This document shows positions 36,972-53,173 of a DNA stretch of 64,000 nucleotides, piece by piece. Under the pieces are notes generated by a model. That model was not told the origin of the DNA. It did no database searches and was given only the letters and a program-made list of their open reading frames with translations. Position 1 is the stretch's first letter. Every line of letters starts with the position of its first letter. The stretch covers positions 124,001 through 188,000 of the forward strand of contig NZ_PVNB01000001.1 of NCBI RefSeq assembly GCF_003001995.1, written 5' to 3'. This DNA is from Orenia metallireducens. Its GTDB lineage: Bacteria; Bacillota; Halanaerobiia; Halobacteroidales; Halobacteroidaceae. Made by a program: the position numbers and the translations under genes.

Positions 36972-39458
36972 CTATATAAATAAACTCATATTTGATTCTT
37001 CAGCATCACTTAAGAAGCTGGCTACTCCTCCAATCTCTACACCATCAATCAACTCTTCCTTCTTGATTCCCATTACATCCATAGACATTTGGCAAGCTAC
37101 CAATCTAACACCATTTAACTTTGCTTGCCCGATTAATGCCTCTAAGGAATCAACCCCTTTATCCTTCATTACCTTTCTAATCATCTTAGGTCCCATCCCA
37201 AACATATTCATGTTGGATAATGGTAGCTTCTCACTTCCTTGGGGCATCATCTTGCCAAACATCTTATCCATCATAGATTTCTCAACTTTGATATTCTCCT
37301 TCTTCCTTAAAATATTTAATCCCCAGAAAGTAAAGAATAATGTAACTTCACTGCCCATCGCTGCTGCACCATTAGCAATGATAAAGGAAGCAATTGCTCT
37401 ATCTAGCTCTCCACTGAAGACAACCATAGTCTTCTTATTCTTAGTATTCTCAGTAGCAATTACTGTTCTACCTTGCCCTTTTTGAATAGTAGCACTAAAA
37501 TTATGACCACCTTGACCAGTGTCTAATAATTTATTTCCTGTACTCTTACACCATGCTCCAATGTCTGCTGTAAATCCTGGATCTGTAGCAATAACTTCCA
37601 ATATATCACCTTCATCTAATTCTTTCATCTTATTTGCTACCTGCATAATTGGACCAGGACATTGTAGTCCACAAGCATCAAGTTTGATCCTCTTGCCACC
37701 TTGCTTATCTGCTAGCTGCTTTCCCACTAGCTGACCTTCTTCAGGATTAGAAGCTGTGTTTAACTTATCACAATCAGGAGTATTGCAGTCATTTAATACT
37801 TTTTTTTTATCATTCATTATCTCTTTATATAACTTATATCCCCCAGATAAATTCTTAACTTTTTTAAATCCATGCTGCATTAAGATTCGAGCTCCAATAT
37901 AGCCTCGCAATCCTACTGCACAATAAACTACAATCTCTTTACCTTTATCTAATTCATCTAGTCTATTTCTTAAACTGTTAAGGGGAATATTGATTGAATC
38001 ATCAATCTTTCCTAATTGAACCTCTACTTCTTCTCTTACATCTAATACAATAGTATCTTTACTTAAATCTTCAAGCTCATGCCAATGAATTATATCAACC
38101 ATCCCATTTAAGATATTTCCTGCAACAAAACCAGCCATATTTACTGGGTCTTTAGCAGAACCAAAAGGTGGAGCATAGGCTAGCTCCAGTTCTTGCAAAT
38201 CAAAGACAGTCTTTTCAAATCTAATTGTAGTAGCTAAGATATCTATTCTTTTATCTACTCCCTCATAACCAACTATTTGGGCACCTAATAACTTACCTTC
38301 GTCAGGAGTAAAGATAATCTTAATAGTCATTGGGATAGCACCTGGATAATATCCTGCATGGTTCTTAGAATTTGTATAAGAAACCTGGTAATCAATCCCA
38401 GCTTTTTTCAACTGCTTTTCATTATTTCCAGTTGCAGCTACAGTTAAATCAAAGACCTTAGCAATAGCTGTACCTTGAGTCCCAATAAATTTTTCCTTCT
38501 TCCCAGATAAGTTATTAGCTACAATTCTTCCCTGCTTATTAGCAGGGCCAGCTAAAGGAATATGGGCAGGCTCCTTAGTTACAAAGTCAACTACTTCAAT
38601 AGCATCTCCAATAGCATAGATGCTCTCATCAGAGGTCTGTAAATATTCATTGACCTTAATAGCACCAGTCTCTCCAAGCTCTAATCCTGCGTCTTTAGCC
38701 AATTTAGTACTTGGTTTAACCCCTATAGACATCACTACTAAATCAGCTTCAATCTCAACTCCACTCTCTAGCTCTACAATAGTCTTATTATTTTCTTCTC
38801 TAAAGGCTTTAACTCCATCAGATAAATATAGATTTATTCCTTTACTACGCATATGATTATGGACTATAGCTGCCATATCTTCATCAATTGGTCCTAAAAC
38901 CTGTGGAGCTAACTCTACTACTGATACCTCTACACCACGATGATATAAGTTCTCAGCCATCTCTACTCCAATATACCCAGCTCCAACTACTACGGCATGC
39001 TCAGGTTTATTATTATCAACAAACTCTTTAATCTGATCAGTATCAGGAATATTTCTTAAAGTAAAGATATTCTTATTATCAATACCTGCTAATGGTGGCT
39101 TAATTGGGTCAGCACCAGGAGATAAGACTAAAGCATCATAACTTTCTGTATAAACCTCACCTTTAGCCCAATCCTTCACCTTAACCTCTTTCTTTTCTTT
39201 ATCAATACTCAATACTTCATTCATTACCCGTACATCAATATTAAATCTAGCTTCCATAGCTTTTGGAGTCTGCACCAACAACTTATCACGTTCCTTAATT
39301 ACTTCACCAATATGATAAGGCAAACCACAATTAGCAAAAGAGATATGCTCACCCTTTTCAAAAATGATGATCTCAGCCTCTTCATCAACCCTTCTCAATC
39401 TAGCAGCTGTACTTGCTCCACCAGCAACACCACCAACAATCAACACTTTCTTGCCCAT
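36972..39458 (-). CDS. CoA-disulfide reductase/rhodanese/TusA/DsrE four-domain fusion
   Basis: 828 aa. Residues 1-445 are an FAD/NAD(P)H disulfide reductase of CoADR type: FAD loop VGGVAGGASTAARLRR, redox Cys44 in SFANCGLPYH, TSDESIYAIGDA. About 460-555 is rhodanese with the active Cys near 512 (VVYCAVGLRG). About 590-660 is TusA/SirA with LDACGLQCPGP. About 668-828 is a DsrE/DsrF-like domain with a Met-rich stretch. Such fusions reduce CoA persulfide or disulfide and pass sulfane sulfur through the carrier domains; the exact substrate is inference. An ArsR-type regulator gene precedes it by 117 bp. The start follows GAAGGAGG. Confidence 0.95.
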   Translation of the reverse strand: MGKKVLIVGGVAGGASTAARLRRVDEEAEIIIFEKGEHISFANCGLPYHIGEVIKERDKLLVQTPKAMEARFNIDVRVMNEVLSIDKEKKEVKVKDWAKGEVYTESYDALVLSPGADPIKPPLAGIDNKNIFTLRNIPDTDQIKEFVDNNKPEHAVVVGAGYIGVEMAENLYHRGVEVSVVELAPQVLGPIDEDMAAIVHNHMRSKGINLYLSDGVKAFREENNKTIVELESGVEIEADLVVMSIGVKPSTKLAKDAGLELGETGAIKVNEYLQTSDESIYAIGDAIEVVDFVTKEPAHIPLAGPANKQGRIVANNLSGKKEKFIGTQGTAIAKVFDLTVAATGNNEKQLKKAGIDYQVSYTNSKNHAGYYPGAIPMTIKIIFTPDEGKLLGAQIVGYEGVDKRIDILATTIRFEKTVFDLQELELAYAPPFGSAKDPVNMAGFVAGNILNGMVDIIHWHELEDLSKDTIVLDVREEVEVQLGKIDDSINIPLNSLRNRLDELDKGKEIVVYCAVGLRGYIGARILMQHGFKKVKNLSGGYKLYKEIMNDKKKVLNDCNTPDCDKLNTASNPEEGQLVGKQLADKQGGKRIKLDACGLQCPGPIMQVANKMKELDEGDILEVIATDPGFTADIGAWCKSTGNKLLDTGQGGHNFSATIQKGQGRTVIATENTKNKKTMVVFSGELDRAIASFIIANGAAAMGSEVTLFFTFWGLNILRKKENIKVEKSMMDKMFGKMMPQGSEKLPLSNMNMFGMGPKMIRKVMKDKGVDSLEALIGQAKLNGVRLVACQMSMDVMGIKKEELIDGVEIGGVASFLSDAEESNMSLFI

Positions 39459-39525
39459 TATTAAAAACCTCCTTCAATGAATTTATATATCAATATATAT
39501 TAATTTTAGAATATAACCTATAAAA

Positions 39526-39573
39526 TTTAAGTTTAAGCCTAAATCTTAGTCTAAAAAGATAATTAAACTTAAA
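39526..39573. repeat. TTTAAGTTTAA hairpin between arsR and the fusion gene
   Basis: TTTAAGTTTAA (39526..39536) pairs with TTAAACTTAAA (39563..39573). Same unit type as 25103..25143. It directly follows the regulator's stop codon and may reduce read-through. Confidence 0.55.
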
Positions 39574-39574
39574 C

Positions 39575-39859
39575 TTAAAACAATGTCTTTACTATCTTCT
39601 TAGCATCTTCATCAATTACATAGTAATTAATCTCTACTCCATTTCTTTCTCCTTCTAAAATTCCTAAATTTCTCAATTTAGCAAGGTGTTGAGATAGAGT
39701 AGATTGAGGAATCTCTAAACAGCTCTGCATCTTAGACACATTACATCCCTCTTCTTCCATCAAACCTCTAACTATACATAACCTAATGGGATGGGACAAA
39801 GCCTTTAAGACTTTAGCTTTAGCCTCTAATATTTCCATCTCCTTTGTGATATTTTCCAC
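39575..39859 (-). CDS. ArsR-family transcriptional regulator, likely sulfur-responsive
   Basis: 94 aa from a GTG behind TAGGAGGT. Winged helix core ALSHPIRLCIVRGLMEEEG, recognition region IPQSTLSQHLAKLRNLGIL, and wing GERNGVEINYYV. Cysteines are at 28, 39 and 47. C39 and C47 flank the second helix, so they could sense persulfide or metal; the classical ELCVC metal motif is absent. It is followed by the CoADR-TusA-DsrE gene, so regulation by reactive sulfur species is the natural guess, by analogy with BigR/SqrR proteins. Confidence 0.9.
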   Translation of the reverse strand: MENITKEMEILEAKAKVLKALSHPIRLCIVRGLMEEEGCNVSKMQSCLEIPQSTLSQHLAKLRNLGILEGERNGVEINYYVIDEDAKKIVKTLF

Positions 39860-40222: not shown

Positions 40223-40252
40223 AAAAAGAAGTGCATAACTGCACTTCTTTTT
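40223..40252 (-). terminator. terminator ending the envelope cluster
   Basis: AAAAAGAAGTGCA (40223..40235) and TGCACTTCTTTTT (40240..40252) pair perfectly; the last gene's stop overlaps the stem. Confidence 0.93.
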
Positions 40253-41297
40253 ATAGTTCATACTTCTCATATATATCTTGAGCAAATTCATCTACAGCAT
40301 TGGTCAATACTCTATCGATCATCTCTTCATCAGAAGGAATAATTATAGATTCATCTCTATAGTAATATTCACTATAATTGGATTTTTTAGTAACTGTCTT
40401 ACTTAAGACAATAGAAGCATCACTTACATCCAATAATTTAAATATAATCTTAGTATATGCCTGTTTCTGTACATGATATCTTTTTTTCTTCTCACCATCC
40501 CAAGTTTCAACATACTCAGAACTCTCATCCTTATTTACATTTCCACTTAGGACCTTACCTACTACTAAGTAATCAACACCCAAAATGTTTCCTATCTCTT
40601 TGGCAGTAGCTGAATCAATCAGTCCAGTTGCCCCCAATTGTTGCTCCTCTAAAATAGCCTTAAGTTGTTTTCTTTCTATTATCTCAATAAATTTTGGATC
40701 TCTATTTAATAATTGAGCAGAAAATAGGCTAGTTGCTCTACTTCCTAAGTTATATCTATAGGTTGTATCCTCAAAATCAATTACCCCTATTCTCTTTAGC
40801 TTTAACTCTCTAAGCTTTTGATATGCTAAGTTGTATTTTTCATTGGTATCAAAATAATTATTATCATAAATCTTAACCTTCTTAAACTCATTATAAGCAA
40901 GCTCCCAATTTCCCTCTGCTAAATAGTCACTTCCTAATTGATAATGGCACTTTTTATACTCTTCTTTAGCATTATACAATAATTTATTAACCTCTGCACT
41001 GTCTTTAATATCTTTAGCTTGAGACAAGTCTTTAATAGCTAAGCCATACTCCTCTTTTTCTAAGAACATTTCTCCTTTACTTAGGTGGTTTTGATATTGC
41101 TCTTCACGATGATTTTTAATTACCTTATAAATCCCAAACACTCCTAAGATAACCAAAGCTCCAATTATTCCTTTTTCCGTTCCATCTGAACCACTTGAAC
41201 TAGCAGAGATACTCTGAGCACGAGCATAATCAGTTCCTACAAAAGAAACCAACATAAATATCATTAAAATTACCGAAATAATTCTCATGACTTTCAA
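40251..41297 (-). CDS. TPR/CsgG-like envelope protein
   Basis: 348 aa from a TTG about 9 nt behind AAAGGGGA. A signal peptide (cleavage near YARAQS) is followed by a second hydrophobic helix (about 43-60), so it may stay membrane-bound. About 65-160 are two or three TPR-like helices (LEKEEYGLAIKDLSQAKD). About 168-340 is CsgG-like: IGVIDFEDTT, IIERKQLKAILEEQQLGATG, IGNILGVDYLVVGKV. CsgG proteins form outer-membrane export pores for curli; this variant lacks a lipobox. It lies 510 bp behind the PD40 gene, so it may be a separate unit of the same system. Confidence 0.8.
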   Translation of the reverse strand: MKVMRIISVILMIFMLVSFVGTDYARAQSISASSSGSDGTEKGIIGALVILGVFGIYKVIKNHREEQYQNHLSKGEMFLEKEEYGLAIKDLSQAKDIKDSAEVNKLLYNAKEEYKKCHYQLGSDYLAEGNWELAYNEFKKVKIYDNNYFDTNEKYNLAYQKLRELKLKRIGVIDFEDTTYRYNLGSRATSLFSAQLLNRDPKFIEIIERKQLKAILEEQQLGATGLIDSATAKEIGNILGVDYLVVGKVLSGNVNKDESSEYVETWDGEKKKRYHVQKQAYTKIIFKLLDVSDASIVLSKTVTKKSNYSEYYYRDESIIIPSDEEMIDRVLTNAVDEFAQDIYEKYEL

Positions 41298-41513
41298 TTT
41301 TAAATTTCCCCTTTCTCTATTCAGCAGTTTATTATACTGAGTTAATTATTTTTGAATATGATTATTTATTGCATATTCTACACAAAGAACAGTAAATCCT
41401 CCATTATTATAAAATTTAATTAATCCAACAACTATTATCCAATAATTCTAAATTCAATAATATAATAATTTAATACACTATTATGTATAGGTATGTGAAT
41501 TCAAAATGAAACT

Positions 41514-41637
41514 TAATGGAGATAGTGCGACAGTTTTTTATTAGATAGTTAGAGGTTGGATGGTTAGGTAGTTGGATTTTCCTAACCACTACCCACCCAC
41601 CTCCTAAATATCACCTTTTCTCTCGATAACATCATGG
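41514..41637. repeat. TIR-type intergenic element with GGTGG core
   Basis: Starts TAATGGAGATAGTGCGACAG like its relatives; the right end is degenerate. The core TAGTTAGAGGTTGGATGG pairs with CCACTACCCACCCACC. The spacer 41298..41808 also contains a CTAGGTTC/GAACCTAG stem at 41650..41667 and no gene. Confidence 0.6.
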
Positions 41638-41808
41638 TTAAATTTTATTCTAGGTTCACGAACCTAGAAGCAGATATAACAACAGGCAGTAACAAGTAAT
41701 AGTATAAAGTAACGACAAATGATATACTTAATCATCACTTAACACTATTGACCTATCACTAGCCTGTAATGTGATTCTATTATGTTAATAAAAGAACTTA
41801 TAATAAAC

Positions 41809-43194
41809 TTAATCTTGCCACTCTGGATCACTATAATTTACTTTTGGTGCAAACATGACCTTTCTATTCTTTTCTTGTTTGGTAAATAAATTAATCTCCT
41901 TACCCTCTGTGCCATCACTTACATATAGGATTAATTGTTCATCTCTATCCCAAAAAGCATAACTATAGATCCTTCTATTAACTTTCATTATCTTCTTTAA
42001 GGAACTCCCATTAGGAGCAATTTGATATAATATCGATTTGCCAGAACTATAATTATTGAATATAATCTCTTCTTCATCCCCTGACCAAGCTGGAGCAGAA
42101 TCTGTACCAAATCCATTATTCAATAAGATTTTAGAAGCTCCATCCTCTTGCATCACATGCAACTTCTTCTCCCCAGTCGTTGCTGATATATATGCAATCG
42201 AATGATATTTAGGAGAATAAGCAAGCTGACTATCATAATAATTATTATCAGTTAACCTCTTTAAATAACTACCTGTTAAATCACTCTTATAAATATCAAA
42301 GTCACCATCTCGATTAGAGGCAAATAAAATAGTATTCTTATCTAACCATACTGGACTCTCTTTATCTGTTGCGGTAAAGGTAATCTGCCGTAGATTAGAG
42401 CCATCTATATCCATTACATAAATATTTGTATCTCTATCTCTATTAGATAGGAACAGAAGCTCTTCCCCATCAGCAGACCAATTAGGAGCCCAATCATCAC
42501 CCTTATCATCGGTTAATCTTACTACATTTTTACCATAGATATCTGTCATATAAATGCTCTTACTCTTTCCTTTATCACTGACAAAAAAGAATTTAGCCTC
42601 TCTCTTATTCTCAAGAGCAAGCTTCTCATTAAATATTTTATCCCTTCCTTCTAGTGTAATCACCTTAGTACAGACCCTATAACCTGGCGAACTGACCTTT
42701 ACCAATCTATCTTCAATAGAAGGATTATCTATTACAGGAATTCTTTCAATTCTAAAATAACCATTGGCATCAGTCTCAACCATCTGATTGCCTAGCTCAA
42801 CAGTAACACCTGCTAAAGCCTCTCCTTTAAATCTATCAATCACCTGACCACTTAAATTCATATAACTTCGTTCTAATTTAATAGAAATTGATTTATCTCC
42901 CTCTTCTAAGAGAAGCTGCTTAGTTTTACTAAGATAATCTTTACCACTCAAGCTGATTACACTATCTTTTTTATCTAGATTATCAATTACAGGAATACTA
43001 TTAAAGATAAAATATCCCTTATCATTCGTCTTGACAACTTTATTTCCAAGCTCTACAGTAATTCCAGCTAAAGGCTCTCCTGTGAACTTATCAGTTACAT
43101 TACCCCTTAAATTCATAAATTTATCATTCTGACAACCTATTACAGCTATAGAGACCACAAGTAATAACATAAGTACTTTTAATCTTTTCAACAT
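41809..43194 (-). CDS. lipoprotein with two carboxypeptidase-regulatory-like domains and PD40 propeller
   Basis: 461 aa from the ATG at 43194 (MLKRLKVLM) behind GGGAGG; the upstream TTG overlaps that site. Lipobox VIGC. Two tandem CarboxypepD_reg-like domains follow (GNVTDKFTGEPLAGITVELG and GQVIDRFKGEALAGVTVELG), evidently duplicated. From about 200 a TolB-type propeller shows repeated blades (IYMTDIYGKNVVRLTDDKGD, IYVMDIDGSNLRQITF, IYKSDLTGSYLKRLTD). TolB-type propellers work in the periplasm near the outer membrane. Part of a co-directional run of exported proteins, 101 bp behind the CsgG gene. Confidence 0.85.
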   Translation of the reverse strand: MLKRLKVLMLLLVVSIAVIGCQNDKFMNLRGNVTDKFTGEPLAGITVELGNKVVKTNDKGYFIFNSIPVIDNLDKKDSVISLSGKDYLSKTKQLLLEEGDKSISIKLERSYMNLSGQVIDRFKGEALAGVTVELGNQMVETDANGYFRIERIPVIDNPSIEDRLVKVSSPGYRVCTKVITLEGRDKIFNEKLALENKREAKFFFVSDKGKSKSIYMTDIYGKNVVRLTDDKGDDWAPNWSADGEELLFLSNRDRDTNIYVMDIDGSNLRQITFTATDKESPVWLDKNTILFASNRDGDFDIYKSDLTGSYLKRLTDNNYYDSQLAYSPKYHSIAYISATTGEKKLHVMQEDGASKILLNNGFGTDSAPAWSGDEEEIIFNNYSSGKSILYQIAPNGSSLKKIMKVNRRIYSYAFWDRDEQLILYVSDGTEGKEINLFTKQEKNRKVMFAPKVNYSDPEWQD

Positions 43195-43295
43195 AAATCC
43201 TCCCTTCAATTTATTAAATCATGCTACATCATAATGACTAATAAAAAGTATATTGTACCAACTTTATGTTAGAAAATATTAATCCAAAGATTCCA

Positions 43296-44174
43296 TTACT
43301 CAAACTCAACAATATCACCCTTCAACGGTAGATCTTCAGATTCTATAACTTCCGCAATAACTGCTCCTTTGCTGATACTAATAATCTTAACTCTACCAAG
43401 GGGCATACTTACTGCTTCTTCCAACTCTTCAACTTCTATCATCCTGATTAATTTTCCATAATTACCCTCTATTAAATTATCGGTATTATCAACTTTGATA
43501 ATCAGCTTACTTCCTATTATTTTAATAATTCTGCCCCTCAGCAAAGCAATTGAAGAGATCTTTTTAGCAATATTATTTACAAAATCATCAGTAGCCTCTT
43601 CAATGCTCTTGCCTAGAGCTGATTTTTTAAAGGCTTCACTACCAAAGCTTAGACCATTAAAACTAGAAATCTTAAAAGAACGGTCCGCTCTCTGGCCAAC
43701 ACCATTAAAAGAAGTAATAATCTCTGAAGTATTAGCATCGACTAATCTTCCTGTCAACACTACTTTGGCTTCAACCCCTGAAGTCTTAAAGGGACCAAAA
43801 GCAATCTCTGCTTTCTCTTTAATCTCCATCTGAGTCAATGTACCTATCACTATAGCATCTACCCCTAATATTCTCCCTAATTCAGCAGCATTAGTAGAAT
43901 CGATTAATCCACTACTTCCTAACTCTTGTTCTGAAAGTATCTTTTCAAGGTCACTTCTTTCTATAACCTTAACCCCTTCAGCTTGAACCAATTTATCTGT
44001 TACTAATTGTGTAACCCCTTCCAAAATATTATCTTTATCTAAACCATTCCACCCTAAATCAGAATTATTAAAAGGAATCAACGCGACTAAAGTCTGTTTA
44101 GCATCAATAGGGGTTGATATAACTAGTACCAATAAAATTATAAATAAGAGCAAAATATTCAATTTAATCTCCAT
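43296..44174 (-). CDS. CsgG-family outer-membrane-type protein
   Basis: 292 aa. Signal peptide (LLLFIILLVLVISTPIDA). The CsgG domain covers about 28-210: VALIPFNNSDLGWNG, VIERSDLEKILSEQELGSSG, LGRILGVDAIVIGTLTQ, and a beta-hairpin region with GVEAKVVLTGRLVDANTSE that corresponds to the pore strands of CsgG. The C-terminal ~80 residues form an extra small domain (KIIGSKLIIKVDNTDNLIEG) resembling FlgT C-terminal folds. No lipidated cysteine, unlike E. coli CsgG. Starts 58 bp after the LPP20 gene. Confidence 0.85.
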   Translation of the reverse strand: MEIKLNILLLFIILLVLVISTPIDAKQTLVALIPFNNSDLGWNGLDKDNILEGVTQLVTDKLVQAEGVKVIERSDLEKILSEQELGSSGLIDSTNAAELGRILGVDAIVIGTLTQMEIKEKAEIAFGPFKTSGVEAKVVLTGRLVDANTSEIITSFNGVGQRADRSFKISSFNGLSFGSEAFKKSALGKSIEEATDDFVNNIAKKISSIALLRGRIIKIIGSKLIIKVDNTDNLIEGNYGKLIRMIEVEELEEAVSMPLGRVKIISISKGAVIAEVIESEDLPLKGDIVEFE

Positions 44175-44232
44175 TGACTAACCCCCTAATAATAATTTAA
44201 GTCAACTAAAAATAAAACACTCAAAATTAAAC

Positions 44233-45126
44233 TTAATTTAAAACTATAACTACTTTACAGTTATTAAAAACTCCATTACTTCTTCCTACTTGATCTAATG
44301 TTCTAGCATCTTTTTGTGATAAGACTAAATCAGTCCCATATCTTCCCTTAGCTTCTATAGCATTAATAATCAATGGATTCTTACCCACTCTTGGATTGGC
44401 CTTAGCATCTGCCAAACTTCTATTATAGCCTACAATCCCCTGAGTAATAACACCATCACTTTGAATCTTACTTATACCATAAACTAAACTTCCACTCTCA
44501 TCATAAACCTTTGGGGCTAAAGCTGGTTTGGCATCTATATTCAGTGTATTAATAATCACTCCTGTATAATCACTCTGCACCAAAGTATCAACTTCTTCTG
44601 AATTGTTATAATCATGACTGTCATTATTAAAATCTAGATCAGAACTATCATTATTATCAGAGGTTTCAGTACTCTCTTCACTTATACTAGGAAAGATAGC
44701 TTTCATAATGCCGTCTTTTCCATAGAATTTAACCTGAACTATAACCTGGTATACATTATCGGCTACCTTCTTCTCTTCAATAATCTGAGCACCCTTTACC
44801 ATACCACTTACCCTCTTATTGATGATATCAGACTGAACTTGAGCATTCTTAACTGTCTGTTCAGAATCTATTTGAACCCCCTTAATCGTCTCTAACAACC
44901 TCCTTTGCGCCATTGTAATAGCAGCCTCTCTAGCCATAATCTTTGCTTGAGCCTCATTTGTAATATAATCAGGAGCAACGCCATACCCAGTTGCCTTTAC
45001 TACTGACTTTTCCCAATCAGTAACTGTATTATCATCTTCATCAAATAACCCCTCTGCAAAGGAGAATTGAGTCATCATCAACAGTATCATCACAGTAATT
45101 AACAAGATATTAATTCTCTTACTCAT
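44233..45126 (-). CDS. LPP20-family exported protein
   Basis: 297 aa, signal peptide ending QFSFAEG. About 40-150 is an LPP20/FlgP-like domain: VVKATGYGVAPDYIT, AKIMAREAAITMAQRRLLETI, VSGMVKGAQIIEEKKV, VYQVIVQVKFYGKDG. The middle is Asn/Ser/Asp-rich linker. About 180-297 is a second beta-rich domain (YTGVIINTLNIDAKPAL, GRYGTDLVLSQKDARTL) typical of proteins that follow LPP20 domains. LPP20 proteins associate with the outer membrane or flagellar basal structures. Gap to the preceding gene is only 24 bp. Confidence 0.85.
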   Translation of the reverse strand: MSKRINILLITVMILLMMTQFSFAEGLFDEDDNTVTDWEKSVVKATGYGVAPDYITNEAQAKIMAREAAITMAQRRLLETIKGVQIDSEQTVKNAQVQSDIINKRVSGMVKGAQIIEEKKVADNVYQVIVQVKFYGKDGIMKAIFPSISEESTETSDNNDSSDLDFNNDSHDYNNSEEVDTLVQSDYTGVIINTLNIDAKPALAPKVYDESGSLVYGISKIQSDGVITQGIVGYNRSLADAKANPRVGKNPLIINAIEAKGRYGTDLVLSQKDARTLDQVGRSNGVFNNCKVVIVLN

Positions 45127-45150
45127 TTCTATACAACCCCCTTAACTTAA

Positions 45151-46308
45151 TTATCTAATCTCTAAAACTAGCTTTGCTTCTGACATACTTTTAACCTCAA
45201 AACTAAAGGGAAGCTTTTCTTCCAACTCTATTGCTATATCTAAAACCTCTACACTAGGCTCTAAATCTATATCAAAGGTGAGCAACTCATTAGCAAATTC
45301 TCTAAAATACACATTAATTACTCCAGATAATGTAGGTAGAGAATTCTTTAATTGACTTAATTGTTTTAAAGAGCTAACACTATTAACCTGTAATTGAATC
45401 GTCTTCTCTTGTTTAATTAAATCATTACTTATCCTATCAATCAATTCTTCTGTAATATTCTCTGTAGCTTCTATAATTGATTTTTTAGCAGCCATCTCCT
45501 TATTAACACCTACACCCTTACCATCACCAGTTACAGCCGCAATCACCTGTGCTGTAGATGCATTAATGACACGGGCTTCTACTTGAGAATTATATGACTT
45601 CAAGCTACCAGCAATACCATCTAGGGTCTTTCTTAAGTCAATATAGTTTGACCTAAGATTAGCTATCACAACAAAATCAGCCTTTAATTGTGAACCTAAT
45701 TTAACAGCCAAATCATAATCTCCAGCGATAATTGTCCTTCGCTCTTCTCTATTGATTAATGAGTCAACCTTATAACGGTCTATTACTTGAAATCCCGATT
45801 CTATGAACTGCTTCATCATCTCGGTTTCAGCTAAACCATCTGGTAAGTCAACATAATAATCCTCTACTTTTTGGGAGAGTAAAACCATAATTCTTGGATT
45901 GCCAATCCTTTTTATATTCAACTTCAAAGCATCTAGGTCACCAGCTAAAGTTTTTCTGCCAACTTCAACTTTAACCTTTACTATATAGATATGATCTTCA
46001 ATTGATTTATTGATTACCTGATACCCTTTTATATATCCTTGACTACTCTTTAAAATCTTATCTTCAATTAACTGGGCATTCTTTACCATAGTTGAAGAAC
46101 TAATAAAAGTTCCTACAGCTTGCTCTACTGCCCTTCTTAATCCATCATTAATGGCTTTTTTTTCAGCATTAACTAGACCATCATCACCTAAATATGCTTT
46201 TCCTTCAGTCTCAACGACAACACTATCTGTAGCTAAGACTGATAGTGTAAAGTTAAAAATCATTATTATAGCTACGAATAATACTATATATAGTCTTTTT
46301 TGCAACAT
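45151..46308 (-). CDS. FlgT/LPP20-like exported protein
   Basis: 385 aa from the ATG at 46308 (MLQKRLYIV), with GGGAGTGG 5 nt upstream. Signal peptide to about VLATDS. The first ~110 residues match the FlgT N-terminal/LPP20 theme: VVVETEGKAYLGDDGLVNAE, GLRRAVEQAVGTFISSSTMV, SQGYIKGYQVINKS. The following part (about 140-260) resembles the CsgG-like middle of FlgT (MVLLSQKVEDYYVDLPDG, VKLGSQLKADFVVIANL). The C-terminus carries a beta-rich domain. FlgT belongs to the flagellar H-ring of diderms, but no flagellar genes are near. Confidence 0.82.
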   Translation of the reverse strand: MLQKRLYIVLFVAIIMIFNFTLSVLATDSVVVETEGKAYLGDDGLVNAEKKAINDGLRRAVEQAVGTFISSSTMVKNAQLIEDKILKSSQGYIKGYQVINKSIEDHIYIVKVKVEVGRKTLAGDLDALKLNIKRIGNPRIMVLLSQKVEDYYVDLPDGLAETEMMKQFIESGFQVIDRYKVDSLINREERRTIIAGDYDLAVKLGSQLKADFVVIANLRSNYIDLRKTLDGIAGSLKSYNSQVEARVINASTAQVIAAVTGDGKGVGVNKEMAAKKSIIEATENITEELIDRISNDLIKQEKTIQLQVNSVSSLKQLSQLKNSLPTLSGVINVYFREFANELLTFDIDLEPSVEVLDIAIELEEKLPFSFEVKSMSEAKLVLEIR

Positions 46309-46548
46309 AATAGCCACTCCCATCTTCTAATCTCACGATTACCTATATTAATTCTATGTAATTACATTAATTCCCTTGTTAAAAATATATTAATTTATTA
46401 TAATTTTTCTTTAAAACACTTTATTAACTTCTTTTATTTAATCTTTAATATAACTAAAACCACTAATAACTGATAATCAATAGCAAAGCTTTTATCGTTA
46501 CTATTTAGCTCTTGCCTTTTAGGTTTATAGTTATTGATTAATAAAGAT

Positions 46549-46586
46549 AAAGAAGAGGCAGATTGCTAGCAATCTGCCTCTTCTTT
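46549..46586 (-). terminator. 38-bp perfect palindrome behind the barrel gene
   Basis: AAAGAAGAGGCAGATTGCT (46549..46567) is followed directly by its exact reverse complement. It divides the envelope cluster into an upstream pair (lipoprotein, barrel) and a downstream set. Confidence 0.92.
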
Positions 46587-46589
46587 ATT

Positions 46590-47813
46590 TTAAAACTCTA
46601 TTTTAAGATTTAAAGCACCTTCAACCTCTTTGGAATCATTGAATAATCCCATTAAATCAGAAACTCCTAAATCAGCTTCAAAGACCCATAAATCTAAACC
46701 TATTCCGGCTGACCAGTCAAAGTCCTTTTCAAGGGTAGAATAACTTATTCCAGTTCTTAAAGGTAAGGATTTTAACCATGTCATCTCCGTTGCAGTAGCA
46801 AATTTATGGTCTTTTTGACCATCATTATAGCTTGTATATGAATAATCTGCAAATAAATCAATGTCTTCAGTCCAGTTCATCTTGCCACCTAAGCGAATAA
46901 TAGCTGGTAATTTATACTTTAGTTCTTCATCCTTAACGACTTCACTATCTCCAACCTCTTCAAACTCCTCTGTAACTTCATTATACTCATATCTAACCTC
47001 ATGAATCCCGTCTACTGTTAAAGCTCCTAGATTCATCACACTAAACCCAAGACTATACTTATCATTTAAGTTAGCATAGACCCCAAAATCAAAGGCTGAA
47101 CCTGTTGCTGTACTATCATTGATACCATCTGGTTCATTATACTTTGCTACAAAGTATCCATCACCCCTAACTACAGGATCCCCCTCTTCATCATAAGTAA
47201 TTATAGTAGTTCCATCACCTTCTAAAGAGAAGATTGCTCCAGTTAAGTGATGATAGGTAAGTCCTATTCTTAAATCCTTTAAATCCAACTTCTCTTTTAA
47301 GCTTTCAGGGCTGATAGAGAAGTTAATCCCAAGATCACCATAAGCTGCTCCAGAACCTATACTACCATTAAGATCATAGGGTTTATCAATTTCATTTCCC
47401 TTTAATAATAGCTCAGCTACATCATAGGATAGATCAAATAAACCAACACCTCTACCCTCTGAACTGATAGCTACTGGTCCTAGGATTACTTTTAATCCAG
47501 TATTAGACTCTCCTCCGCCTAAAAATCCATCTTCAACATCAGCTAACAGCTCATCCTTCATCTCTTCATCAATATATTCATTGACCAACAAGTTATTCCA
47601 CAGGCTACCTGCTAGTCCAAATTCAAAGGTAAATCGATCTGAAGTAGCATTGACTGCTCCAGGATTTCCATAAAGAGCATCAGCTCCTACCAACGTAGCA
47701 AACTCATCACCAAGACCAATTGTTTTAGCTGAAGAAGCAGCTTCTATATCATTATCAAATGTTAGCACCAGTACCAATAAAAAGCATGACATTATTAAGA
47801 TCGTTTTAAGCAT
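46590..47813 (-). CDS. outer-membrane beta-barrel protein
   Basis: 407 aa. Signal peptide to about DIEAASS, then KTIGLGDEFATLVGADALYGNPG, the start pattern of PorV/FadL-like barrels with an N-terminal hatch. The rest alternates strands and turns (FDFGVYANLNDKYSLGFSVM, LFADYSYTSYND, LRTGISYSTL, WSAGIGLDLWVF) and ends GALNLKIEF with terminal Phe. I expect about 14 strands. It lies 20 bp behind the large lipoprotein gene, so the two are co-transcribed and may form a complex. Confidence 0.85.
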   Translation of the reverse strand: MLKTILIMSCFLLVLVLTFDNDIEAASSAKTIGLGDEFATLVGADALYGNPGAVNATSDRFTFEFGLAGSLWNNLLVNEYIDEEMKDELLADVEDGFLGGGESNTGLKVILGPVAISSEGRGVGLFDLSYDVAELLLKGNEIDKPYDLNGSIGSGAAYGDLGINFSISPESLKEKLDLKDLRIGLTYHHLTGAIFSLEGDGTTIITYDEEGDPVVRGDGYFVAKYNEPDGINDSTATGSAFDFGVYANLNDKYSLGFSVMNLGALTVDGIHEVRYEYNEVTEEFEEVGDSEVVKDEELKYKLPAIIRLGGKMNWTEDIDLFADYSYTSYNDGQKDHKFATATEMTWLKSLPLRTGISYSTLEKDFDWSAGIGLDLWVFEADLGVSDLMGLFNDSKEVEGALNLKIEF

Positions 47814-47832
47814 TTATTCTTCACCCCCTACT

Positions 47833-49863
47833 TTATTCTTTATTTTGATTGACTTTGACTACTAATTTAGCATAAAGATTATTGATAGTTACCTCATCGG
47901 TACTCTTTAATACAATGTTGTCACCTGTTACCTTATATTTAACACCTACATATAAATTATCATCAGTTAACCAATCGGCATCACTAGCAGTTAAATCTAC
48001 AACCTTTTTCTCTCCACTATCCTGTTTAGTTAAAGTAAAGGTTTTAAATTTGTTAGCAGATTTATATAACTTATCTAATTGGCTCTCTTTTTCTTCCTCA
48101 CTTAAACTGTCAAGATACTCATCTAAATCTTTGCCTTCCCACTCATCAACTTTTCCTAAATAAACAATTACTTCTACGTCAACAGGCAAATCATTTTTAA
48201 AATCTTCAATGATCAATTGTCCCTCTTTAAAGTAATTATCAATCTGCTCTACATCATCATCACTAAGTGAATCATCGACAGTTTCGGGGATAGCTCTATC
48301 CTCTATATCCTTATTAAGAGTAATATCAAAAGGAACCTCTATCTCTACTTTAGGATTCAGCTGATCAGCTGAATCGATAGTAACTGAACCAGTAGCTTCA
48401 ACTCTAGCATCTCCTAGAAGTCTTATAGATGTTATATCTTCTTTATGATTTAAGCCTTGTAACCAATCTAAAAAGTCATTCCCACTATCATTCAATAGTG
48501 ATAGCTCCTTATCAGTACTATCAATCACTGCACTCCCTCCACTAATAGAGGATAGAGTTATAGTAGCTTCACTACCATCTTCATAGATAGCTCTAAACTC
48601 AGCATTATCTAAATTGATAAGCAGATTCTCAATATCATATCCGTCAATTACAAATCTAGCAATGGCACCATTTAAAGAGATACTATCAATATCCTCAGGC
48701 ACCTCTGTTAAAAGCTCTTCATCTAAAGCCTGATTTGCATCAGTGAAATCGAATAAATTGTTATCAACTGTAACACTAGCTATTTCTGTATCAGAACTGA
48801 ATCCACCAGTTACTGAAATACTTTGAGTAGTATCATAAGTGACATTTGTTCCCGAAACAATCAGATTAAAATCAATCTCCATTCCATTTATTAAATCGAT
48901 GCTTTGACCAGTTAAATCTAAACTAATCTCATTATCAGCTGAACCATCGGATACTGTGCCTATGCTTAACTGTTCTATTGCAAAATTTAAGCCACTAGTT
49001 TCAGTTTCAGGCGGAAGAATAGTTAAATCAAGATTTCCACTATTAAAAGCTACTGCTTCCAAACCAGCCTCTACAGATGCTACATTTGTAGATTGGGTGA
49101 CCTCAGTAGCAGCTAAATTAGTATAGTTTACTACCTTACTAATCTCTGCGTTATCGATACTATAAGCTAAATTCATGGCACCATCATTATTTAAGACACC
49201 AGAAGTACTAAGATTACTAAGCTCTACTGTTAAATCACCAGTTATACTACTATTAGTTAGATCAATAAATTTTTGAACACTGCTTGTTCCTTGAGTAATA
49301 TTAGTAAAGCTTACATCTCCTAAGAGAGTTGAACCATCTTTAAAGGTTAAAGTTACTGAATCAATATCAAAACCATTTGGAGCAGTAATCATAATCCCCA
49401 TCCGATTTATTGGATTATTACTCTCATCTTCACTATTACTTGAGAAGTCAATACTATCAAATTCATCAATAATGATAGTACTTGTTATCCCACTATCAGA
49501 ACTTACTCCAGCAGGTATAGTGATATCCTGATTATTATTAATTACATTATCTAATTGAATTAAAGGCAAAGCTACTGTCTTATTAACGCTAGGCAAAGCA
49601 ACCTCAGTCAGCTTCCCTCCCACATCAATAATATCCATCTCTTCTGTCTTTGAGTATTGTATTAATCCATTATTATTAACAATATCCTCATTATCTTCTA
49701 CTAGCTCTTTTGCTGTCTTACCCTCATTGTTAGTTATCGGTACTTTATAAGCAACATCCCAAGCTGGACCAAAAGTACCACGACTGTTTTCAGAACAGCC
49801 TGATAAAACTAAAGAAGAGAGTATAATAACCATCATTAAAGTTAATATCTGCTTCTTTTCCAT
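47833..49863 (-). CDS. large beta-rich lipoprotein of unknown function
   Basis: 676 aa from the ATG at 49863 (MEKKQILTLMM) behind AAGGGGTG; the longer frame has no ribosome site. Lipobox LVLSGC. The remainder is acidic, Ser/Thr/Asn/Asp-rich and almost free of cysteine, with repeated strands such as GLNFAIEQLSIGTVSD, IDLINGMEIDFNLIVSG and VSITGGF-like stretches, suggesting stacked immunoglobulin-like or porin-partner domains. I do not recognise a family. It is the first gene of the envelope run and directly precedes the barrel, so a surface or periplasmic partner of that barrel is likely. Confidence 0.8.
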   Translation of the reverse strand: MEKKQILTLMMVIILSSLVLSGCSENSRGTFGPAWDVAYKVPITNNEGKTAKELVEDNEDIVNNNGLIQYSKTEEMDIIDVGGKLTEVALPSVNKTVALPLIQLDNVINNNQDITIPAGVSSDSGITSTIIIDEFDSIDFSSNSEDESNNPINRMGIMITAPNGFDIDSVTLTFKDGSTLLGDVSFTNITQGTSSVQKFIDLTNSSITGDLTVELSNLSTSGVLNNDGAMNLAYSIDNAEISKVVNYTNLAATEVTQSTNVASVEAGLEAVAFNSGNLDLTILPPETETSGLNFAIEQLSIGTVSDGSADNEISLDLTGQSIDLINGMEIDFNLIVSGTNVTYDTTQSISVTGGFSSDTEIASVTVDNNLFDFTDANQALDEELLTEVPEDIDSISLNGAIARFVIDGYDIENLLINLDNAEFRAIYEDGSEATITLSSISGGSAVIDSTDKELSLLNDSGNDFLDWLQGLNHKEDITSIRLLGDARVEATGSVTIDSADQLNPKVEIEVPFDITLNKDIEDRAIPETVDDSLSDDDVEQIDNYFKEGQLIIEDFKNDLPVDVEVIVYLGKVDEWEGKDLDEYLDSLSEEEKESQLDKLYKSANKFKTFTLTKQDSGEKKVVDLTASDADWLTDDNLYVGVKYKVTGDNIVLKSTDEVTINNLYAKLVVKVNQNKE

Positions 49864-49940: not shown

Positions 49941-50471
49941 TCAATGTAAATTACCTTCTCTATGGACAACATCATAAGCAAAAAGAGCATAGCCAATCTC
50001 AGCAGTCGTCATCCCTTCTTCTTGAGCTAATTCTCTGACTATCTTCATAATAGCTAAATAATCATCAGGGTTAAATTGTTCCTTCTCTTTATCAAAATAT
50101 CCCATTCGATAGAGGGTTGCCCATACTCTAGTATCGATGACACAATGCTCTTTATCATTTAAACTGGTCAAAATAGCAGAAGCAGTTGGTGTACCAACCC
50201 CCTTCAAACTATTAAATAGTATAACTTGGGCAAATTCATCATCAATCTTATAAGCAATCTCTGTAATCTTCTCCACTCGCCCTACTGGATTCCTATGTAC
50301 ATGATAGGAGCTTCTTGTAGAGTTGAGATGGGCCAATTGATATAGTTCATCTTTACTTAAGTAGCCTTTCTGGTGATACCTCTTGCCAATATCCTTTAAC
50401 TTTTCAGGATACAAGCCCGATGTCTCTGGATAAATTTTTAGATATTTCTGAAAATTAATCTTAGGGGTCAT
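49941..50471 (-). CDS. HhH-GPD-like DNA repair protein
   Basis: 176 aa. The helix-hairpin-helix SLKGVGTPTASAILTSLN is followed by HCVIDTRVWATLYRMG, where the Asp takes the place of the catalytic Asp of HhH-GPD base-excision glycosylases. There is no C-terminal FeS Cys cluster, and the protein is shorter than EndoIII or AlkA (about 210-290). It may be a compact glycosylase or a nucleic-acid-binding relative. GGAG precedes the ATG. It lies upstream of the envelope run without obvious link. Confidence 0.75.
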   Translation of the reverse strand: MTPKINFQKYLKIYPETSGLYPEKLKDIGKRYHQKGYLSKDELYQLAHLNSTRSSYHVHRNPVGRVEKITEIAYKIDDEFAQVILFNSLKGVGTPTASAILTSLNDKEHCVIDTRVWATLYRMGYFDKEKEQFNPDDYLAIMKIVRELAQEEGMTTAEIGYALFAYDVVHREGNLH

Positions 50472-51085: not shown

Positions 51086-53173
51086 CTAATATCTATCTTC
51101 AATTGTAATATCAGTATAGAAATGCTTTAATATATCTAAATATTGATAGTTATCATCTGCCATTGCTGCTACTGCAACTTGGTCCATACCAACACTGTGT
51201 CCCCAACCACCACCGTAAAATAGGAAGCTAACTAGCTTACCATCACGATATTGTGGTTGAATCCAGAAACGATTGCTCCGTAAACCACCAAATTTAGAAC
51301 GTAAGTTATAGGTGAACTCCTTCTCTTCCTCTGCACCCACTACTAATAGAGATTTAACACTCCCTGCTTTCCCTCTATAGGTAGGCACAATCTTCTTAAT
51401 CTCTTTAATATCTAAGCTATTTTCTAGATACTCTATTGATAGATTACGTTGCCAGCGGTAATGGCTCTCCTTAGTATATTGGAATGCTTTAGAATAGGAA
51501 TCTGGTGACTCTCTTAACCATTCCTTTAATTCTACAGGGCTTAAAGGAAATCTAGAATCTTCTTTTTCAGTAGATACTGCTCTTAAATAACCTATTTCAA
51601 ATCTCCAGACATCTTCACTATTCTCAGTATATCCTCCAGAGTTGGCACTATAAACTGCATTAACTGCCTTGCCATTATAAGTCATCACTTCACCTGCTGT
51701 CTCTAATACAGCTTGGTTAGAGTTAGGATGTTCACGGGCAATTCCTCGATAGGCAGCACAGTGAACGTCAGAACATAAGTCATATCCATCATCAGAGTGC
51801 TTACCTAAATTAGCTAGTGTATAACTTCTAGCAGCTACCGATTGGGTCTTTAGAGCCTCTCTAGGCCATAAAGCCGACATCTCAGAAGGGATAACCCCCA
51901 TGAGATATTCCTCCATGTGAACTAAGTTAACTACAGTAATCCCATTCTCTTGAGGAATTAACTCTAATGATCCACGATATTGACGGTCTTCAATCCCTCC
52001 CCAATAATAACCTCTACCATAAATTATATTATGGACTAGTACTGGAGCATACTCCTTAGGTCTTACTTGAATAGAATTACTAAATTCTATTTCTTTTTCA
52101 CCTGCTACTAGATAGTACTTGCCATCCCTTATAGTAGCTTTGATAAGCTCTGATTTTTTACCCTCTAAAATAATCTTTTCTCCTTCTTTAATAACAAAGT
52201 CACTACCTACTCTAAAATAAACCTCTTCTTCATCTTCAGTAATTCCTATTTTCAACTCTCTTCCTGGGCTTTCAATAGGTTCTATCTCCTTAAAAGTGAC
52301 TTCTTTTGGAATCTCTCTCTTCCGCTCTTCTGGTAATGTTAAATCTTTATCATCAAAATATTCAGGATGAGCTTCTTTTATTCGCTCTAAATTCTCTTGA
52401 ATTACTTTATCACTGGAATTCTCTTTATTTGCTCTTTTTAAATACATAACTGCATCTCTATCCTGACCTAAATTCAAATAAGATAATGCAATCATTCTAT
52501 TTACACCCTTGAGACTTCCGTCAGTTATTAGTGCTTTCCTGTAATTATCTATAGCAATACTATAGCTTTCTTGAACAAAATTTATCTCTCCTAGTTGATA
52601 GTATCCTAACGCAAACTTATCATATTCTAAAGCAACTTTAACATATTCTTCTGCTTGCTGATAATCTTTTTCTTTAAAGGACATTAGGCTCAAATAATAG
52701 TTAGTATCTCTTAAAATAAATTCATCTTCTGATTCTGAATTCAATATCTTCTCCAACTCAATTTTAGACTTACCAATTTTATCTAAATTATAATAAGCAA
52801 TAGCCAAATCCAATCTACTCTCAACATCTTCTTCTTTCTCTAATAGTGCCTCATATTCTTCAACAGCTAAATTATATTCACCTAAAGTTTCATAAACTGA
52901 TGCTAAATTTTTTCTTGCAATCTTATTATCTTCATAGTCTAAAATTTGCTTATACTTATCTATACTCGCCTTATACTCTCCCTGGTAGTATAAGGCTTTT
53001 GCTTCATCCAACAATTTCTCTAAATCATAGTCAGCTTGAGCATCCTGAGTTTTTTTAGTCTCTTGCTGACTTGGATGATTATAATAAGCAAATATTCCAG
53101 AACTTATTAGTGATAATAAGATTATCCCTATTGCTATGACTTTAAAATGCTTTTCTTCTAATTTAATCCACAT
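51086..53173 (-). CDS. TPR-containing SpoIID/LytB-domain protein
   Basis: 695 aa. One membrane anchor (about 10-30), then seven or so TPR repeats (about 48-275; YKASIDKYKQILDYEDNKIA, YNLAVEEYEALLEK). An SpoIID/LytB domain covers about 375-690: YLMGVIPSEMSALWPREALK, TQSVAARSYTLANL, VNAVYSANSGGYT, and the end GGWGHSVGMDQ. SpoIID is a peptidoglycan lytic transglycosylase in engulfment; this TPR-fused form is a cell-wall enzyme whose use outside sporulation is also possible. Own terminator, no spo neighbours. Confidence 0.93.
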   Translation of the reverse strand: MWIKLEEKHFKVIAIGIILLSLISSGIFAYYNHPSQQETKKTQDAQADYDLEKLLDEAKALYYQGEYKASIDKYKQILDYEDNKIARKNLASVYETLGEYNLAVEEYEALLEKEEDVESRLDLAIAYYNLDKIGKSKIELEKILNSESEDEFILRDTNYYLSLMSFKEKDYQQAEEYVKVALEYDKFALGYYQLGEINFVQESYSIAIDNYRKALITDGSLKGVNRMIALSYLNLGQDRDAVMYLKRANKENSSDKVIQENLERIKEAHPEYFDDKDLTLPEERKREIPKEVTFKEIEPIESPGRELKIGITEDEEEVYFRVGSDFVIKEGEKIILEGKKSELIKATIRDGKYYLVAGEKEIEFSNSIQVRPKEYAPVLVHNIIYGRGYYWGGIEDRQYRGSLELIPQENGITVVNLVHMEEYLMGVIPSEMSALWPREALKTQSVAARSYTLANLGKHSDDGYDLCSDVHCAAYRGIAREHPNSNQAVLETAGEVMTYNGKAVNAVYSANSGGYTENSEDVWRFEIGYLRAVSTEKEDSRFPLSPVELKEWLRESPDSYSKAFQYTKESHYRWQRNLSIEYLENSLDIKEIKKIVPTYRGKAGSVKSLLVVGAEEEKEFTYNLRSKFGGLRSNRFWIQPQYRDGKLVSFLFYGGGWGHSVGMDQVAVAAMADDNYQYLDILKHFYTDITIEDRY

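Follow-up and report, generated by a model that had tools for sequence, protein, structure and literature searches.

Conserved FlgP/FlgT-like genes and a barrel-lipoprotein pair in Orenia metallireducens and other Halobacteroidaceae

Why would a bacterium keep relatives of the flagellar proteins FlgP and FlgT in a gene cluster that has no flagellar neighbours? The question is raised by a 64,000-nucleotide stretch of the Orenia metallireducens genome (contig NZ_PVNB01000001.1, positions 124,001 to 188,000; hereafter the window). The Halobacteroidaceae (Halanaerobiales), to which this species belongs, are diderm Firmicutes (PMC5007114). Seven minus-strand genes of the window combine a module of the flagellar H-ring family, here away from any flagellar gene, with an outer-membrane barrel and its large lipoprotein partner. 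This combination is conserved across the family and is undescribed: the literature searched (for CsgG, LPP20 and FlgT jointly, or for CsgG in diderm Firmicutes) yielded no description of a cluster like this one, in a search that most subscription journals lie outside.

The cluster and its FlgP/FlgT-like core

The seven open reading frames are all present where a sequence-only reading of the window had placed them. They are numbered from gene 7, the first transcribed, to gene 1, and are listed here with the neighbouring features.

47833-49863, minus strand: gene 7, large lipoprotein of 676 amino acids (lipobox LSGC)
46590-47813, minus strand: gene 6, outer-membrane barrel, DUF5723 / PorV-FadL-like, with a C-terminal Phe
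46547-46588, minus strand: strong terminator-like hairpin of 19 pairs, between the 7-6 and 5-4-3-2 units
45151-46323, minus strand: gene 5, FlgT-like N domain of SHS2/FlgP type, TolB-N/CsgG-like middle domain and extra C-terminal domain
44233-45126, minus strand: gene 4, FlgP-type ring domain and Tp0624 domain-2-like C-terminal half
43296-44174, minus strand: gene 3, CsgG-family protein with a model matching the FlgT middle and C domains; dispensable
41809-43194, minus strand: gene 2, lipoprotein combining two CarboxypepD_reg domains with a TolB-like PD40 propeller
40251-41297, minus strand: gene 1, two hydrophobic N-terminal segments, tetratricopeptide repeats (TPR) and a CsgG/LpoB-like domain
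51086-53173, minus strand: membrane-anchored TPR protein with a SpoIID domain (PF08486, E-value: 8e-29)
49941-50471, minus strand: endonuclease-III/OGG-like gene between the SpoIID-TPR gene and gene 7, conserved in position

Gene 4 encodes the clearest ring-type protein. Its family profile was compared with PDB sequences and matches chain 9hmf_C (E-value: 2.3e-20), which we take to be Campylobacter jejuni FlgP from the entry title and the chain length. It also matches the Vibrio FlgP of 8z5n (E-value: 8e-5). The FlgP-type domain lies at profile positions about 46-137, and the alignment with 9hmf_C is gapless across the ring-forming hairpin segment of FlgP. Gene 4 therefore has an SHS2 domain carrying the hairpin insert, which accompanies ring formation in the FlgP-fold family (PMC12222027); the domain is shared with the FlgO/FlgP/FlgT H-ring of Vibrio and the FlgP basal disk of Campylobacter. 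The C-terminal half (about 180-292) is similar to the second domain of Treponema Tp0624 (5jir_B residues 139-261, E-value: 3.9e-11). The protein thus differs from flagellar FlgP in being joined to a Tp0624-type domain, and from Tp0624 in having a FlgP-like domain joined to it and no OmpA domain. Domain 2 of Tp0624 has not been found without domains 1 and 3 (PMC5104382); in contrast, the corresponding half of gene 4 stands nearly alone in Fuchsiella, as an almost separate gene of 152 amino acids (L115:2347-2805).

Gene 5 also matches FlgP in sequence (E-value: 2.2e-9). Against the FlgT N domain (PF16548) it scores 25.4 bits (E-value: 2e-5), under the cut-off of 28.8, and the fold match spans the domain. 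An AlphaFold2 model of gene 5 has a predicted local distance difference test score (pLDDT) of 76.5 and a predicted template modelling score of 0.46. Its top Foldseek matches are FlgT of 8z5n and 3w1e (E-value: about 2e-9), and the middle domain resembles TolB-N, PelC and CsgG (Z about 12). These domains match singly, their relative placement being unreliable (high root mean square deviation, rmsd, over both). In flagellar FlgT a single protein carries all three domains (N, M and C), whereas here gene 5 corresponds to N-M and gene 3 matches M-C, so that both domain pairs of FlgT are shared. Gene 5 further resembles the Leptospira lipoprotein LipL46 over most of its length (E-value: 3e-12), but it is far under the cut-off of that family and has no lipobox. 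The FlgO domain (PF17680) was not found in any window protein at an E-value of 1; FlgO domains do occur in distant versions of the module (L063, L064, L079).

The lipoprotein encoded by gene 2 has a propeller like that of TolB, and the middle domain of gene 5 is like the TolB N domain. In contrast to TolB, the two lie on separate proteins, and gene 2 adds CarboxypepD_reg domains and falls under the TolB cut-off (144.6 vs 343.15 bits). At another locus (L083:9662-11065) a FlgT N domain is fused to a PQQ/BamB-like propeller and adjoins a gene-4-like gene. With this fusion, propellers join the FlgP/FlgT-like module more than once.

The seven genes had been described as one run with mostly short gaps of 20-101 base pairs. 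The intergenic gaps from gene 7 to gene 1 are in fact 19, 266, 24, 58, 101 and 511 base pairs. As the 266-base-pair gap downstream of gene 6 begins with the terminator-like hairpin, the cluster is probably transcribed as three units (7-6, 5-4-3-2 and 1). An ATG start is readable for genes 2-7 and a TTG for gene 1, with a G-rich stretch upstream of most. Signal peptides or lipoboxes had been reported throughout; lipoboxes are present in genes 2 and 7 only, and gene 1 contains two hydrophobic segments, the second at residues 42-60. Compared with the sister species (L020), genes 1, 2, 4, 5 and 6 have ratios of nonsynonymous to synonymous substitution rates of 0.12-0.17 and so are under purifying selection.

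A constant barrel with an exchanged lipoprotein

Gene 6 passes the Pfam cut-off of DUF5723 (37.1 vs 26.8 bits), which it shares with the PorV/PorQ-FadL barrels. Its partial match to PorV is far under the cut-off of that family (30.2 vs 90 bits), so it is not a PorV/PorQ member, and its partner here is the gene 7 lipoprotein. For gene 7, searches of Pfam, NCBIfam and PDB sequences gave no convincing family. The ends of the protein are constant (a lipobox with a C-x-x-N...GPxWD start, and a VNQ C terminus) and the middle is variable.

The two genes are adjacent in 8/9 genomes of the order (in Halanaerobacter they are on two contigs), and they remain so when genes 4-5 are located elsewhere. In the distant genomes G160 and G065 (L127, L128), a related large lipoprotein is encoded just upstream of a gene-6-like barrel (hhalign E-value: 8e-11; BLAST E-value: 6e-12). 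The pairing is not universal, since in G236 and G284 the gene-6-like barrel has another neighbour in place of a gene-7-like lipoprotein (a GMP synthase and a 5'-nucleotidase/SLH protein, respectively).

Gene 7 exists in two types at the same locus, a long one of 656-700 amino acids and a short one of 476-494. The short type is carried by the sister species, Natroniella sulfidigena and Fuchsiella (L020:12007-13491, L112:7344-8774 and L113:6536-8017). Among themselves the short forms share 32-39% identity, and with the long forms 20-27%, whereas gene 6 retains 77% and 74% identity within the two genera in which the type of gene 7 has switched. In the gene 7 tree the short forms make up one group (support 100/100), at least three changes of type are required on the gene 6 tree, and a constraint that keeps congeners together is rejected for gene 7. 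Gene 7 is dimorphic, its types replacing each other within two genera while gene 6 stays orthologous. The pattern would fit a gene replaced in place as well as an ancient duplication whose copies were sorted differently. The exchange of types and the barrel partner suggest that the gene 7 protein is exposed at the cell surface.

Conservation, modules and the outer membrane

The system is found in Halanaerobacter jeridensis, Halonatronum saccharophilum, two Natroniella species and Fuchsiella alkaliacetigena, and the gene set is conserved across Halobacteroidaceae. The complete order is retained in G011, and all of it except gene 3 in the sister species (G012). In G007 and G006 the set lacks gene 3; gene 1 is relocated in the former and gene 7 is on a different contig in the latter. 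Halonatronum and the two Natroniella species have the set divided between two places. One holds the SpoIID-TPR gene, the endonuclease gene in some cases, gene 7 and gene 6, joined in Natroniella by gene 1; the other holds genes 5 and 4 with CsgG-family partners. Gene order is thus kept in relatives, with gene 3 missing in most of them and the set divided in some genomes.

Genes 4, 5, 6 and 7 are present in the same 9/13 genomes of the order (a count in which Fuchsiella contributes only the second half of gene 4 in full). Shared ancestry accounts for part of this co-occurrence, though genes 6-7 lie apart from genes 4-5 in 4/9 of the genomes that have both. The seven genes are therefore two or three modules and not the single combined set that had been supposed. 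Two fusions in Halonatronum, of gene 4 with a CarboxypepD_reg domain like that of gene 2 and of gene 5 with the N-terminal TPR region of gene 1, link gene 4 to gene 2 and gene 5 to gene 1.

The conserved neighbourhood reaches upstream to the endonuclease-III-like gene, probably a bystander, and to the SpoIID-TPR gene. The latter adjoins genes 7-6 within Halobacteroidaceae, and related genes adjoin FlgP/FlgT-like genes in distant Bacillota (L063, L064, L073, L079, L080). Downstream of gene 1, two genes (window positions 36972-39859) occupy the same flank position in G006, G007, G011 and G012; they are probably bystanders that mark the locus.

Wider distribution was assessed in a sample of 299 genomes of the phylum, in which an E-value under 1e-10 was taken as a strong match to gene 5. 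Such matches occur in 21 genomes. All 21 encode Omp85, against 77 of the 299 overall (hypergeometric P 4e-14, not corrected for kinship), and the FlgP/FlgT-like genes are thus confined to genomes with outer-membrane assembly genes in this sample. Genes 5 and 4 are clustered with a CsgG-family gene in several other families, and also on a contig of Candidatus Coatesbacteria (L065). The sequence-only reading had proposed that diderm Firmicutes have an envelope system, so far undescribed, whose parts are known separately. This proposal is supported: the order is kept in relatives, the parts co-occur, and gene 5 keeps company with outer-membrane assembly genes.

Ring, tether, flagellum or pore

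The explanation that we tentatively favour, at slightly less than an even chance, is a flagellum-independent relative of the FlgO/FlgP/FlgT H-ring that works with a barrel-lipoprotein surface pair. Since genes 4 and 5 have FlgP-type and FlgT-type domains, their SHS2 domains with the hairpin insert may build a ring or lattice beneath the outer membrane. The proteins of genes 3 and 1, with their CsgG/TolB-N-like domains, and the propeller lipoprotein of gene 2 could serve as adaptors or spacers in it. A surface complex is suggested by the barrel and gene 7, in which gene 6 would carry or anchor the lipoprotein and gene 7 would be gripped at its constant ends, its variable middle facing outward. 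The SpoIID-TPR neighbour suggests that peptidoglycan may be opened locally by this enzyme for the assembly. Contact between the two modules would be consistent with their co-occurrence, their synteny in three genera and their merged arrangement in the window.

Several points weigh against this explanation. The ring is inferred from the homology of the parts. Gene 4 has no lipobox, whereas FlgP is a lipoprotein; model confidence for gene 5 is low in the hairpin itself (residues 73-92); and the second hydrophobic segment of gene 1 makes the periplasmic side of its TPR-CsgG part uncertain. The link between modules consists of co-occurrence and partial synteny within one order, with statistics weakened by shared ancestry, and outside the order genes 4-5 and 6-7 often occur without each other.

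The cluster might instead encode a complex that maintains or anchors the envelope (similar to Tol-Pal, or a tether between outer membrane and peptidoglycan) and has no role in export or display. The TolB-like propeller, the TolB-N-like domains and the SpoIID-TPR neighbour would all suit such a complex, as would the Tp0624 domain, whose parent protein has been proposed to stabilise the envelope (PMC5104382). However, a constant barrel paired with a large variable lipoprotein would be unexpected in a pure tether, and the cluster encodes no peptidoglycan-binding OmpA domain. We consider this alternative unlikely.

A flagellar accessory ring of these swimming bacteria, meaning a genuine H-ring or basal disk whose genes lie apart from those of the flagellum, is less probable still. 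The solved structures of FlgP and FlgT are all flagellar, FlgP of the diderm Firmicute Acetonema longum was used in PMC5758724, and FlgH is present in 13/13 genomes of the order. However, four of these (G001, G002, G003, G005) have neither gene 4 nor gene 5, and in O. metallireducens (genome of 4.1 Mb) about 100 kb separate the cluster from FlgH. Across the phylum sample, FlhA was matched in 17/21 genomes with strong gene 5 matches, a rate like that of the remaining genomes (P 0.77). FlhA was not matched in the other four, among them the one-contig G257; G154, G233 and G257 are nearly complete and have gene 5. The FlgP/FlgT-like pair does not track flagella, and gene 5 differs in this from a FlgT that occurs with the flagellar gene set.

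The domain assignments made from sequence alone largely hold, except that gene 4 does not reach the Pfam LPP20 cut-off (12.3 vs 25.9 bits) and that the fold of gene 3 is nearer to FlgT than to CsgG. Gene 3 does pass Pfam CsgG (PF03783, E-value: 3e-21), and genes 1 and 3 both belong to this family, which includes the curli channel. The model of gene 3 (pLDDT 69.2, with low confidence in the C-terminal 65 residues) matches the M and C domains of FlgT (3w1e) with Z 16.1 and rmsd 3.1 over 171 residues, compared with Z 12.2 or less for the CsgG structures listed; Chlamydia CT253 is as good a match as FlgT (Z 16.4). The CsgG channel is a 9-mer pore formed by two membrane hairpins, and the gene 3 model shows one long hairpin. 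Searches of PDB sequences with genes 1, 3 and 6 gave no useful match. Gene 3 is absent from G006, G007 and G008. In the sister species it is reduced to a remnant of 42 codons with 81% identity (L020:8305-8430), and its loss there is a recent deletion. When a remnant was sought in L021, L023 and L024, only other CsgG-family or FlgT-like proteins were found. The CsgG-family member retained across Halobacteroidaceae is gene 1. Elsewhere, CsgG-family proteins beside gene 5 have a C-terminal extension like a small Phe-ending barrel (L060:8442-9776, L062:87-1391).

A CsgG-led machine that exports surface material through a pore of gene 3 or gene 1, as the sequence-only reading had it, is very unlikely in spite of the Pfam matches and the long hairpin in the gene 3 model (residues 107-146), because neither gene has the lipobox of a lipid-anchored CsgG, gene 3 fits FlgT better and is missing from most relatives, the hairpin region of gene 1 is charge-rich in the alignment and unlike membrane strands, and a search of the genome found no other CsgG gene. 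A CsgG pore was accordingly rejected as the core of the system, gene 3 being lost in relatives and closer to FlgT.

The FlgP/FlgT fold family has been called broad in the literature; in the papers covered, no second use of its ring-forming members is described. FlgP and FlgT have been known as accessory proteins of flagella, and a cluster of ring-type domains in genomes without an FlhA match, and confined to genomes that have outer-membrane assembly genes, makes the origin of the flagellar outer rings testable. One doubtful possibility is that rings of the FlgP/FlgT type are an older outer-membrane device, which diderm Firmicutes still employ without flagella to support a barrel-lipoprotein surface complex, and which flagella recruited elsewhere. 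The cluster also ties Tp0624 of Treponema, the role of which is unsolved, to the FlgP ring family. Finally, it provides a dimorphic lipoprotein whose barrel partner stays constant, in the diderm Firmicutes, a group whose outer envelopes are little known.

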